Shown piece by piece: positions 28,869 to 33,509 of a stretch of 42,653 nt of DNA. The DNA is from Odoribacter sp. Its GTDB lineage: Bacteria; Bacteroidota; Bacteroidia; Bacteroidales; Prolixibacteraceae. Made by a program: the position numbers and the translations under genes. The stretch is from positions 1 through 42,653 of the forward strand of contig PNOH01000038.1 of assembly GCA_013824715.1 (NCBI GenBank), written 5' to 3'. Positions within the stretch are counted from its first letter, which is position 1, and every line of letters begins with the position of its first letter. The notes under the pieces were generated by a model. That model did not search any database, was not told where the DNA came from, and saw nothing but the letters and a program-made list of their open reading frames with translations.

Positions 28869-29801
28869 TCAAATTTCGAAATTCAGGTACAGATTATCAA
28901 GGTTGTATGGGGTTGCCTGATACACGTAATAATTCAGCCAGTTGGAAATTAGCAGATTGGCATGTCCACGCCATCGCATCAACGGTTCTTTCTCCGGGTC
29001 ATTGTCTGTATAATAATTAAGGGGTAATTCGATGGGTAGCTCTTTCTTTAAATCCCTCTTGTATTCGGTATCCAGTGTAAATCTGGAATATTCGGAATGG
29101 CCGGTAACAAAGAATTGCCGTCCATCTTCGGTCATAACCATATTCACTCCCGACTCAACCGATTTCGAAACAATTTTCAATTGCGGAACTTTCAGGACAT
29201 CTTCTTCCAAAATTTCAGTATGGCGGGAGTGTGGAACGAAATATTCATCGTCGAAACCCCTGAAAATGGGCAAAGTATCGTTCAGATTACGATGCCTGAA
29301 AACCCCAAACATTTTTTTGCTGAGCGGATATTTGGGCACGCCATAAAAATGGTACATGCCTGCCTGTGCAGCCCAGCAAATAAATAATGAAGAGGTTACG
29401 TGACGTTTCGACCAGTCGAAAATCCCGGTCAGCTCCTTCCAATAGGTAACATCTTCAAAAGGAAGCATTTCTACGGGCGCTCCGGTAAAAATCATTCCAT
29501 CATAATTTCTGGATTTAAGCTGGTCAAAGGTTTTGTAAAATGCCTTCATGTGAATGTCGGGTGTATTTTTTGATTCATGACCTTTCATTCTCAGAAAATC
29601 AATTTCAATCTGAAGAGGTGTGTTCGATAGCAAACGGATCAGATCGGTTTCGGTCGTTATTTTAACGGGCATCAGATTGACAATGATGATCTTTAACGGA
29701 CGGATATCCTGGTGCGAAGCACGCGATTCGTCCATGATAAAAATGTTTTCTTTTTGCAGCAATTCGATGGCTGGTAATTGATCAGGAACATTTATAGGCA
29801 T
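28869..29801 (-). CDS. metA: Homoserine O-acetyltransferase, MetA type
   Basis: A 310-residue MetA-family homoserine acyltransferase (usually called metA, or metAA for acetyl users). The catalytic Cys142 ([11 protein letters not shown]), His235 and Glu237 (VTGHSEY) are at the family positions. Residue 111 is Glu ([13 protein letters not shown]). In characterised enzymes Glu111 favours acetyl-CoA and Gly111 favours succinyl-CoA, so this should make O-acetylhomoserine, the substrate of the next gene's product MetY. An automated label of homoserine O-succinyltransferase would probably be wrong. It is the last gene of the minus-strand methionine operon, 73 bp after metY. Confidence 0.93.
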
Positions 29802-29874: not shown

Positions 29875-31185
<1,311 letters not shown>

Positions 31186-31199
31186 TTATTTTTAGGGTT

Positions 31200-32549
31200 T
31201 TAAAATTTAGTAAAAAATATTCGATGTATTTCGGTAATTGCTTTCCGCGTATCTTTCTGGTCAATAATAAGGTAGCTTACCAAATCTGAAGCGCCGGAGC
31301 CGCTAAGCAGAACATTAATTTTATGCTGGGCGACAGCGGTAAACAGTTTCGCCGACACACCATGATGTTGCTGCATTCCGTGACCCACAACCGCAATGAG
31401 CGATACCTGATCTTCGATGACAATTTCACTTACCGAACTGAGGGGCAGACGCTGACAGATTTCGCGGGCTTTCTCAATTTCATTTTTATTCAGTATGATG
31501 TTGATGCTTACCTGCGAAGTGATAACTGAGCGGATGTTGATAGCAGCATGATGGAAAGCTGTTGTTACTTTAGCCAAAATACCTGGTTTGAAACCTACTC
31601 CCGGGCCATTCAGTTTTAAAACTGCGATTTCTTCGGTATGCACCACACTTTTAACCACGTTTGGCGAGACAAACGTTTCGGAATTGATGATCGTAGTCAG
31701 CTCTTTTCCCTTATTTTTAAGGCGATAGACTTGAATGGGGATGTGTTGGCTGATTAATGGCTCAACGATTCGGGGATGAATGGAAAGCTCACTGAAATAG
31801 GATAATTCAGATGCTTCGGCATAAGTCAGCCGGGGAATAAGCTCCGATTCTGCAATAAACTCTGAATCGGAGGTGCGAAATTCCTTCTCCAATTCCCATA
31901 ATTGCAGGGAATCAGCGCCGATAAGCCTCGTAATTGCGGCTGCAGAATAATCAGCCGGACGTTTTCCCAGCCTGGCTATCTTTCCCGATGAAGTTATGCC
32001 ATACGATCCGGGTATCAGATTAATACCTTCAGGAACCAGATCTTTCAGGTGACAGGATTCTTCCAGTAGAAAAGTTGCATTGCCGTATTCTTTGGTCACA
32101 TAAAGTCCAATATTTTCAGGAAAAATCAGGTTTGAAATTATTTGGTTTTTATTCAGAAATAAATACAGAATGCTTGCCGTAATACGTTCGGCAAAGCTGA
32201 TTACCTGATCTTTAAGAGCCAATGAAAAGTCGCCGGTAAACTCGATCCCTTTCAGCAAATTATGCAGGTTATTACTCTCGGATTTCAGGATTTCATCGGG
32301 TTCTGAAAGTTGAAATACCATTAATTTTTGAGTTATAACATCGTTTACCTTGCTAATAATCATATCTGAAGTGGAAGAATGGCTAATCAGAAGATCGATG
32401 CCCTGTTCAATGGTTTGTTGTAACTCTGGAATAGCGGAAACCACTATTGTCATGTTATTTCCTGATTCGGCCAAAAGGTTGGCAAAAGCTTCGAGAACAG
32501 GAAATTTGGACAAACTGTTCCCGCCAAATCGTACGACACAATTTGACAT
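31200..32549 (-). CDS. Aspartokinase-like protein with degenerate catalytic motifs
   Basis: A 449-residue protein aligned over its length with aspartate kinase, most like the kinase half of ThrA/MetL, including the tandem ACT-type domains (about 300-449, with LNGPGVGFKPGILAKVTTAFHHA and VAVVGHGM-like strands). The fold markers AEASELSYF and HPRIVEP are intact. The catalytic signatures are not: KFGGTS reads RFGGNS (Lys to Arg7, Thr to Asn11), LGRGGSD reads LGKRPAD (194-200), and the DVDG loop reads LEKE within WELEKEF (218-224). Glu121 and Asp200 remain. It may be weakly active, or a non-catalytic effector-binding subunit. It is the first structural gene of the operon, 85 nt after the leader ORF. 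Confidence 0.8.
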   Translation of the reverse strand: MSNCVVRFGGNSLSKFPVLEAFANLLAESGNNMTIVVSAIPELQQTIEQGIDLLISHSSTSDMIISKVNDVITQKLMVFQLSEPDEILKSESNNLHNLLKGIEFTGDFSLALKDQVISFAERITASILYLFLNKNQIISNLIFPENIGLYVTKEYGNATFLLEESCHLKDLVPEGINLIPGSYGITSSGKIARLGKRPADYSAAAITRLIGADSLQLWELEKEFRTSDSEFIAESELIPRLTYAEASELSYFSELSIHPRIVEPLISQHIPIQVYRLKNKGKELTTIINSETFVSPNVVKSVVHTEEIAVLKLNGPGVGFKPGILAKVTTAFHHAAINIRSVITSQVSINIILNKNEIEKAREICQRLPLSSVSEIVIEDQVSLIAVVGHGMQQHHGVSAKLFTAVAQHKINVLLSGSGASDLVSYLIIDQKDTRKAITEIHRIFFTKF

Positions 32550-32634
32550 GATGAAAGATTAAAATAAGAAATAGGATAATGAAAATTGTGGGTTCAGCCT
32601 TCAAAACAACATGAATAATCACACCGCCTGAAGG
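32550..32634 (-). promoter_or_regulatory. Candidate attenuator between leader ORF and operon
   Basis: After the leader stop codon the RNA can form AGCCTTC/GAAGGCT (overlapping the stop at one side; second strand near 32592-32604). Two other pairings compete: GATAATG, within the last Met codons of the leader, with CATTATC at 32575-32581; and GTGGG inside the leader with CCCAC just after the hairpin. A tract of about 40 nt with no G, C/T-rich, then leads to the first structural start codon. There is no classic T run, so Rho-dependent or translational control is as likely as intrinsic termination. Confidence 0.5.
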
Positions 32635-32721
32635 CTAGCGCATTATCATAGACATCATAAAATCATTGCACCCCACTGGAAGGGAAGCCGGAAGAGCGAT
32701 ATTTTTTGCCGAATGATTCAT
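32635..32721 (-). CDS. Methionine-codon-rich leader peptide
   Basis: A 28-codon ORF (ATG at 32721, TAG ending at 32635), too short for usual gene calling. It begins MNHSAKNIALPASLP and ends DFMMSMIMR, so four of the last seven codons are Met. It starts about 20 nt after the predicted transcription start and precedes a methionine operon by 85 nt. The placement of the Met run just before alternative RNA pairings is the pattern of a ribosome-mediated attenuation leader, where scarcity of charged Met-tRNA stalls the ribosome. The Met clustering and position are seen directly; the mechanism is inferred. Confidence 0.68.
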   Translation of the reverse strand: MNHSAKNIALPASLPVGCNDFMMSMIMR

Positions 32722-32747
32722 TTTTGATATCCTGATGAAATAGAGTG

Positions 32748-32778
32748 CAAACATAGATAGTTTTTCAAGATAGACAAA
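32748..32778 (-). promoter_or_regulatory. Promoter of the methionine operon
   Basis: On the minus strand TTTG (32775-32778) is followed by exactly 19 nt and TATGTTTG (32748-32755). Both match the Bacteroidota sigma-ABfr consensus (-33 TTTG, -7 TAnnTTTG). Transcription should start near 32742. It is the best promoter in the window. Confidence 0.8.
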
Positions 32779-32787
32779 ACTATCTTG
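32766..32787. promoter_or_regulatory. Candidate operator overlapping the -33 box
   Basis: An 8-bp perfect inverted repeat, CAAGATAG-N6-CTATCTTG, spans the -33 element of the methionine operon promoter. A third half-site, CTATCT, lies about 5 bp further toward the -7 box. A repressor dimer bound here would block the promoter. No regulator gene is adjacent. Confidence 0.55.
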
Positions 32788-32804
32788 TATTTGTTTAAAC
32801 AAAA

Positions 32805-33509
32805 TCAGGTTAAATAATTGTTAAGGGCAAGCCTGTCGTCTCCAAAAAGGATTTTGAAATTGTTGAAAATCATTTTGGCGAGCTTGTTTAGGTCAATTTT
32901 AAGTACTTGAATCGCAAGAAAATAAACACTTTCGATGGAAATTTCGCGGTCATCGGTTTCAAGAAATAGCCGGTCAGTTGGGATGGCCAGAAAAACAGCG
33001 TGTTTTGATTCGTTGCTCAATAACTTTTCGCCTGCCGAAAAATAAAAACCATGCCTGACCAGATTTTTGGTTGTTTCCAGATTGCCATTATACCCATGAA
33101 TAAGCCAGGGAACATTGGATTTTGTCTCCTTTTTAAGTTGCATTAAATCGGAATAAGCCCGCACACAATGAATAATCAATGGCTTTTGATACTTTTCGGC
33201 AATTTCAATTTGTTTTTTGAAATGCGATACCTGAAGTAAAAATTCAGTTGATATTGACCGGTCAAGGCCACATTCTCCTATAGCCAGCATGTTTTTCTGT
33301 TTTGCTGCAAGTTCAATAGCCTGAAAACATGCTTCCGGATTTACTTTTCCGATGTGCCAGGGGTGAAGCCCGGTTGAAAAAAGCTGTTTTTTTTCATTCA
33401 GCGGCAAATCCTGTGCAAACACATTCAATACCTGAATTTGCCCACCATTCACGATTTGGTGTGTATGTAAATTTATCTTCGGCAGATGTGACTGAAAAGG
33501 ATTTTTCAT
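32805..33509 (-). CDS. TatD-family metal-dependent hydrolase
   Basis: A 234-residue protein (from ATG at 33509) with the TatD barrel motifs: metal ligands in INLHTHQ, then STGLHPWHIG, IGECGLDR, the IIHCVRA strand, LIHGYNG and FLETDDRE. TatD proteins are DNases or other phosphoesterases. The sequence is shorter and more divergent than typical TatD (about 260 residues). A promoter box at 33573-33580 puts transcription start downstream of the frame opening at 33575, so the Met at 33509 just before the first motif is the likely start (33563 is possible). It ends 17 bp before the methionine promoter region. Confidence 0.86.
   Translation of the reverse strand: MKNPFQSHLPKINLHTHQIVNGGQIQVLNVFAQDLPLNEKKQLFSTGLHPWHIGKVNPEACFQAIELAAKQKNMLAIGECGLDRSISTEFLLQVSHFKKQIEIAEKYQKPLIIHCVRAYSDLMQLKKETKSNVPWLIHGYNGNLETTKNLVRHGFYFSAGEKLLSNESKHAVFLAIPTDRLFLETDDREISIESVYFLAIQVLKIDLNKLAKMIFNNFKILFGDDRLALNNYLT

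Follow-up and report, generated by a model that had tools for sequence, protein, structure and literature searches.

In the amino-acid attenuators of the thr, his, trp, ilv and leu type, a short leader ORF carries clustered codons for the regulated amino acid, and the position of the ribosome on this ORF sets how the downstream hairpins fold. To our knowledge, methionine genes are controlled by SAM riboswitches, T-boxes or repressors, and a Met-codon leader is missing among the amino-acid attenuators. Within the Bacteroidetes, the Bacteroid-trp RNA has a Trp leader peptide. This RNA (RF01692) is described as a Bacteroidetes cis-regulatory leader of an amino-acid operon, in this case for tryptophan (PMC2864571). 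It had no match in the DNA analysed here, a stretch of 42,653 nucleotides called the window below, or in the 95 locus sources scanned. Clues for leader-peptide attenuation ahead of amino-acid operons were also reported in Flavobacterium psychrophilum, methionine not being named in the main text (PMC9723704), and short ORFs were described in Bacteroides 5' UTRs (PMC7366714).

Other described systems join a methionine gene to more than one element. The SAM-I met riboswitch of Xanthomonas, which binds uncharged initiator tRNA, also couples SAM and Met-tRNA status; its expression platform, however, binds tRNAfMet and frees the Shine-Dalgarno sequence, and the main text of the report names neither a leader peptide nor a uORF (PMC7270179). 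In Mycobacterium tuberculosis, a riboswitch and a short translated uORF stand before the methionine gene metE, and Rho is discussed in the report, but the ligand is B12 and not SAM, and the uORF lies within the aptamer (PMC11260477). No methionine leader peptide was found in the accessible text of PMC2965389. Likewise, no Met leader-peptide attenuator was found among the matches listed in the open-access PMC literature, subscription papers being outside the scope of this search.

The window locus shares with the thr, his, trp, ilv and leu attenuators a codon-rich leader ORF right before a biosynthetic operon and a hairpin placed for control by the ribosome. Judged by its sequence, it appears to be a form of ribosome-mediated attenuation which differs from them in the amino acid it would sense (Met), in a hairpin that begins in the stop codon, and in the terminator and competing structure, neither of which was found in the window. 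Moreover, no more than two of its Met codons are constant, in alternation with free codons. Methionine would fill the missing case among these attenuators, both in the window-type form, in which no terminator was found, and in terminator forms before some metY genes.

We consider it likely that the locus is a ribosome-mediated, methionine-responsive, attenuator-like leader element. The sensing half, putative stalling at the Met codons, is well supported by comparison, and the output half is a proposal. An earlier note on this DNA had proposed a Met-rich leader peptide and a methionine attenuator. The comparison strongly supports the Met leader and a ribosome-based methionine sensor, whereas a classical attenuator is unsupported in the window.

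The leader locus

The features of the locus are the following, with positions given in the window.

32775..32778, minus strand: TTTG, -33 element of the putative Bacteroidota-type promoter, called from sequence; a TTG lies at the matching distance from the -7 box in 30/31 leaders
32748..32755, minus strand: TATGTTTG, putative -7 element; the box lies 20-26 nt ahead of the leader ATG in 30/31 leaders
32635..32721, minus strand: leader ORF MNHSAKNIALPASLPVGCNDFMMSMIMR, 28 codons, ATG at 32721, stop TAG at 32637-32635, ending DFMMSMIMR
32641..32658, minus strand: putative regulatory codon cluster ATG ATG TCT ATG ATA ATG, with Met(-4) at 32649-32647 and Met(-2) at 32643-32641
32595..32637, minus strand: hairpin AGCCTTC...GAAGGCT with an inner stem; the 5' arm starts at the T of the stop codon
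32550..32594, minus strand: G-free tract of 45 nt before the start of the first gene at 32549, candidate Rho-loading region
31200..32549, minus strand: aspartokinase-like protein (AK), first operon gene, with degenerate catalytic motifs (RFGG, GKRPAD)
29875..31185, minus strand: metY, O-acetylhomoserine sulfhydrylase (TIGR01326, 659 bits against a cut-off of 495)
28869..29801, minus strand: metA, homoserine O-acetyltransferase type (NF047918 MetA_acetyl, 484 bits against a cut-off of 460.5)

The near-ideal promoter, the 28-codon Met-rich ORF and the stem AGCCTTC/GAAGGCT that the earlier note had described are all present, and the G-free tract that it placed ahead of the first structural gene is confirmed, with 45 nt (32594-32550). 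The layout TTTG-N19-TATGTTTG on the minus strand is called a promoter from the Bacteroidota consensus, which we take to hold here. From the position of the -7 box, transcription is predicted to start at about 32741. Of 31 leaders, 30 have a TAnnTTTG box at a distance of 20-26 nt on the 5' side of the leader ATG; among 1657 background tiles of 90 nt, 114 contain the box at any place. Because of this position, a longer ORF that begins within the -7 box is probably not transcribed. Two overlapping inverted repeats surround the -33 element (32755-32787; AGATAGTTTT/AAAACTATCT and CAAGATAG/CTATCTTG). The palindrome was rejected as a conserved site, as it beats shuffled sequence in 3 of 30 leaders and is unconserved past the nearest relative.

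Four Met codons stand among the last seven codons of the window leader. The window contains 509 ATG ORFs with 10-60 codons, and none but this leader has at least four Met in its last eight codons; 20 dinucleotide-shuffled windows contained no such ORF. This rarity, together with the conservation described below, indicates that the Met-rich leader ORF is not a product of chance. The entropies of the three codon positions in the leaders are flat (0.46, 0.54 and 0.51) and pN/pS is 0.55, so that selection does not plainly act on the leader peptide.

As for the downstream genes, the metA product scores above the cut-off of the NCBIfam exception model for homoserine O-acetyltransferase and below that of the O-succinyltransferase model; the acetyltransferase match is consistent with the neighbouring metY. 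KFGG and GRGGSD are presumably the catalytic aspartokinase motifs. In the window AK, the Lys of KFGG is replaced by Arg and GRGGSD by GKRPAD, and the ACT domains are kept. None of the NCBIfam aspartokinase models reaches its cut-off on this protein, the best being TIGR00657 with 201.1 of 208.7 bits. The Arg for Lys and the absence of GRGGSD recur in the AK of L005-L033, L051 and L114, and both motifs are intact in G028, G029, L057 and genus g12, which has Thr leaders. By its motifs, the window AK may be a pseudo-kinase or a regulator. The AK start region with the first codons (32519-32551, minus strand) can fold a hairpin, in both modelled ribosome states.

Conservation of the leader and its hairpin

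The comparison set was independent of the motif and consisted of the regions upstream of AK genes. In the family, 36 loci were found by AK protein search, and a 37th, G302, was read as the gene preceding metY. One such search, in 61 genomes, gave an AK at E 1e-60 in 34 of them. The 37 loci are made up of 22 from the window genus (window included) and 15 from other genera, L051 being counted in the family. The 18 named AK-bearing relatives are labelled Prolixibacteraceae (9), Bacteroidetes/Bacteroidota (7), Gaoshiqia sediminis (1) and MAG Chitinophaga (1), which makes Prolixibacteraceae the probable family of the window. Gaoshiqia sediminis, a cultured species, has the leader at locus L051.

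With codons numbered back from the stop position at the hairpin, 34 of the 37 loci have Met at both -4 and -2; these are all of a set of 31 leaders, and G028, G029 and G302. Both codons occur in every Met-type leader of the window architecture that was read. The earlier note had regarded its proposal as lost if relatives kept the operon and lacked any small Met-rich ORF at this position. Such an ORF is kept at these 34 loci, and the other three, which are of Thr type, depart from this in part, with one Met codon near the stop in each. Among family genomes without such an AK match, G027 has the leader before metY, G025 has a Met-run leader, and G034 has a tandem of two Met-run leaders ahead of metY. 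Outside the family, the AK locus L057 also has a Met leader; at the AK locus G052 of another family, no leader was seen within the 420 nt read.

Of 140 family genomes, 105 gave a match to the covariance model R2, one each and in 16 of 23 genera; the remaining 35 genomes gave no model match. Sixty further family loci were taken from these 105 matches and are biased to the motif, as they were selected by the model, so that their variation alone, and not their Met, counts as independent evidence. Of these, 58 could be parsed, and Met stands at -2 and -4 in all 58. Position -3 ranges over eleven amino acids, and position -1 is Arg in 46, Gln in 10, Cys in 1 and Leu in 1. The other two loci keep M-x-M and have a different codon at the stop position.

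The same element precedes metH (L054), metY (L056, L058, L086, L094), metX (L085) and AK (L057), with the genes behind the out-of-family leaders named by NCBIfam. Order-wide searches by model and by pattern, each in 393 genomes, yielded six genuine cases outside the family (L054, L056, L057, L058, L085 and L086). Among the nine matches of the model search, L059 falls within a coding sequence and L060 is antisense to one. The pattern matched in 15 genomes, six of them genuine and the remainder in coding sequence or unclear, and the reversed pattern, used as a control, matched in four. In a phylum-wide model search of 395 genomes, ten matches were obtained besides the window, none of them a recognisable leader before a methionine gene; the strict filters used for searches of more than 40 genomes lose weak matches, so that absence is not established by these counts. 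One phylum-wide match, L069, lies outside long ORFs. On this sequence comparison, the element is judged to be a real, conserved Met leader with a hairpin, spread across several Bacteroidales families.

In the window, the folding energy of the hairpin is -19.2 kcal/mol (z -3.97). When 42 leaders were each folded from the stop codon, z averaged -4.63 and ranged from -7.9 to -1.1; in 40 of them, the first pair is at an offset of 0-2 nt within the stop codon. Some of the out-of-family hairpins are weak, with z -1.1 in L056, L085 and L086 and -2.1 in L058; the low score of G033 reflects a hairpin cut by the 48-nt folding window. In alignment A3, which was fitted to the structure and on which the pair counts were taken, 10 of the 16 pairs have changed on both sides, and none of 500 shuffles scored as high. 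In A3, 88% of cells are paired, and no more than 44% once the partner strand is slid. The first base of the stop belongs to the two outermost pairs, and these are made in no more than 8 and 10 of the 21 sequences. Furthermore, the gaps in the leader ORFs of the genus come in multiples of three, and those in the hairpin loop are of single bases. A search for the hairpin motif elsewhere in eight family genomes gave five matches in three genomes, two of them known leaders; in some of these genomes the reversed-pattern control exceeded the match count.

The stop codon itself is less constant. It is replaced by a sense codon in several relatives: GAG in L009, CAG in L016, L024 and L200, CTG in L198 and AAG in L205 (the latter two in genomes G831 and G852). 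In L009, L016 and L024, the reading frame ends at a TGA within the 3' arm of the hairpin, and the first base of the former stop position is still paired in L009 (G-C) and L016 (C-G), not in L024. L028 has a stop, TGA, already at codon -1. Hence, the end point of the ribosome is not fixed.

The three exceptional AK loci belong to genus g12. An AK match was obtained in three of four g12 genomes (G033, G861 and G863), and all three have Thr-rich leaders at the same place (MITMTTITRTSISML, MITIYYITRTNTSML and MITNNNTIRTNTSML), with a hairpin as in the Met-type leaders (TAGCCTTC; UAGCCUUC). In G033, AK is followed by metY and metA. With Met codons exchanged for Thr codons and the hairpin kept, genus g12 offers a natural experiment on the signal that such leaders read. 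Since place and hairpin stayed when the codons switched, the swap speaks for tRNA sensing through the codons rather than for an aptamer or an arrest peptide specific to Met. Nonetheless, the Thr-type leaders keep Met(-2), which pure codon sensing leaves unexplained.

SAM-I riboswitches and Met-run leaders in the order

In 9 of the 20 sources scanned with Rfam, a set without the window congeners L005-L024, a SAM-I aptamer (RF00162) lies directly upstream of the leader (L056, L057, L058, L085, L086, L089, L148, L149 and L150). Aptamer and leader ATG are 11-21 nt apart, and 39 nt apart in L085. Among the 60 further loci, SAM-I was found in three, all from g7 genomes (L231-L233). There was none in the 15 other family sources at E 0.05 and none in the other 57 of the 60 loci. 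The window itself gave no Rfam match at the gathering score, SAM-I and T-box included, and within 32400-32900 nothing sensible appeared at E up to 10, neither SAM-I nor T-box. A riboswitch reading of the window leader was rejected on this absence of an Rfam match. In short, the aptamer adjoins the leader in other loci, whereas the window leader stands alone.

Since SAM-I is still upstream in sister lineages, the simplest reading is that the leader grew behind the aptamer and outlived it. From these sequence arrangements, the element seems to have originated downstream of a SAM-I riboswitch, and the window lineage seems to have lost the aptamer later. A tandem of SAM-I and leader peptide would be a natural two-input switch for SAM and Met-tRNA, and the window lineage looks like a case where the riboswitch was lost and the downstream sensor kept.

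Leaders closer to the textbook occur before metY elsewhere in the order. Met-rich leaders with possible antiterminator/terminator pairs were found in G034, L151, L152 and L153; the last three come from 30 order-wide metY loci scanned and from three other families, and a further one, L156, is weaker. These Met-run leaders stand in tandem in G034 (locus L115), L151 and L152. Some sister operons have plain Met runs, e.g., MMMHMIAMMM and MMMAMFMMMWM. Over seven such leaders, the 2:3 antiterminator duplexes have a mean z of -3.35, with segments picked by eye, the weakest being L153 (-2.07). U-tracts follow the terminator hairpins and are short or late in the second leader of L151 and in L153. A terminator scan flagged two of the seven leaders; the others were recognised by eye, their hairpins being present in the minimum-energy folds. 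In all seven, the minimum-energy fold of the free RNA contains the terminator and not the antiterminator. Methionine leader attenuation of near-textbook form therefore seems to exist in the same order. These leaders and the window have in common the Met codons, the pathway and the bacterial order. They differ, however, in that the former have contiguous Met runs with an antiterminator and a terminator, neither of which was found in the window.

Proposed mechanism and competing explanations

Comparison establishes the leader ORF, its constant Met codons, the covarying hairpin, the promoter position, the association with met genes and the Thr switch of g12. The conserved codons, the hairpin at the stop and the codon switch, along with the recurrence before metH, metX and metY and the textbook-like attenuators before metY, support the ribosome-based sensor that the earlier note had put forward. 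A transcript would begin about 20 nt before the leader ORF, and the ORF would be translated. Elongation across its Met codons would need charged elongator Met-tRNA. When Met-tRNA is scarce, a ribosome would wait at -4 or -2 against the folded hairpin; when it is plentiful, the ribosome would reach the stop and open the lower 5' arm. For a ribosome whose P site is at Met(-4), the hairpin begins near the mRNA entry, 12-14 nt past the first nucleotide of this codon. Given this distance, it would come up to the entry channel when the ribosome is at or near the two constant Met codons. Stem-loops 11-12 nt from the P-site codon are reported to hinder tRNA binding in the A site (PMC7282821).

The same Met codons could act through the peptide and not through the tRNA. 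A nascent-chain arrest peptide with the C-terminus M-P/S-x-M-x-M-x-M-R would stall in the exit tunnel on methionine or SAM, and not on a lack of Met-tRNA. Such a peptide is suggested by P or S at -8 and -5, by hydrophobic residues in place of Met at -9, by N/D and then F around -12/-11 in many leaders, and by the Met(-2) that persists even in the Thr-type leaders. Besides, Met has a single codon, so that codon and residue are inseparable by synonymous change. Across leaders, the Met at -2 and -4 alone are constant, and the preferences at -5, -8 and -9 are weaker. Against an arrest peptide, positions -3, -1 and -5 vary, the leaders differ in length, some sister operons use plain Met runs, and g12 has Thr and Ile codons with the same hairpin. 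We regard an arrest peptide as unlikely. It is still more improbable that the hairpin is a structured RNA that binds a ligand or protein and that the small ORF is incidental; we would give this very little credence. Leader conservation is indeed partly at the nucleotide level, and the hairpin outlives the loss of the stop, whose first base is still paired in L009 and L016, not in L024. However, the Met codons are kept in families with a very dissimilar hairpin sequence (L057, L085, L086), and triplet gaps in the ORF and the switch to Thr codons also speak against it.

As for the output, the earlier note had proposed competing pairings. The paired segments it named are present in the window but are not conserved: GATAATG/CATTATC is found in 2 of 31 leaders, the window and its nearest relative, and GTGGG/CCCAC in 1 of 31, the window. 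Complementarity between the leader ORF and the sequence after the hairpin is no better than in shuffled sequence (mean z +0.16 over 31 leaders, lowest in L009 with -3.35), and the leader strand has no terminator-like site within 32400-32900. A classical transcription attenuator, with mutually exclusive hairpins and an intrinsic terminator, is therefore highly improbable in the window, even though the metY leaders of G034, L151, L152 and L153 look like one. What the window does have of an attenuator is a predicted-translated ORF with Met codons and a match of these codons to the pathway (metY and metA in the window, metH and metX behind the element elsewhere); mutually exclusive structures and an intrinsic terminator were not found there. 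Translational attenuation, in which access to the start region of the first gene would depend on the state of the hairpin, seems quite unlikely. Modelled start accessibility is lower by 0.06-0.23 in the window and its near relatives L005-L008 once the 3' arm is freed. Across 39 leaders modelled with assumed ribosome footprints, however, it falls by more than 0.05 in seven and rises by more than 0.05 in four, the rest hardly move, and there is no trend.

Rho-type termination in the conserved G-poor tract is our favoured output, a step that is drawn from composition only. An unstructured tract with C over G, as expected of a Rho-type site, is present by composition. At most two G in 45 nt were counted in 19 of the 21 genus leaders, against 3 of 77 control upstream regions, from which 18 copies of the tested region had been dropped. 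The mean G content is 2.9% in the 21 genus leaders, 7.1% in ten more (nine other genera and L025) and 13.6% in the 77 controls; the leaders are related, so these values are not independent. A stalled ribosome and the folded hairpin would shield the leader and the short G-poor tract from Rho, and polymerase would reach the operon; otherwise, Rho would stop transcription ahead of the first gene. If the hairpin also folds in untranslated leader RNA, its formation cannot by itself serve as the ON signal.

The ribosome-mediated Met leader can be combined with the tandems described above. It would then be a terminator-less Met-tRNA sensor that was once the expression platform of a SAM-I riboswitch with two inputs, is now free-standing in the window lineage and acts via Rho; this full account is offered tentatively, as a possibility that we consider less likely than not. 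In the window genome itself (assembly of 4.6 Mb), metK is preceded at some 110 nt by a SAM-II riboswitch (L185 459-518; C6:116258-116317). From this position, the window genome may sense SAM ahead of one gene and Met-tRNA ahead of another.
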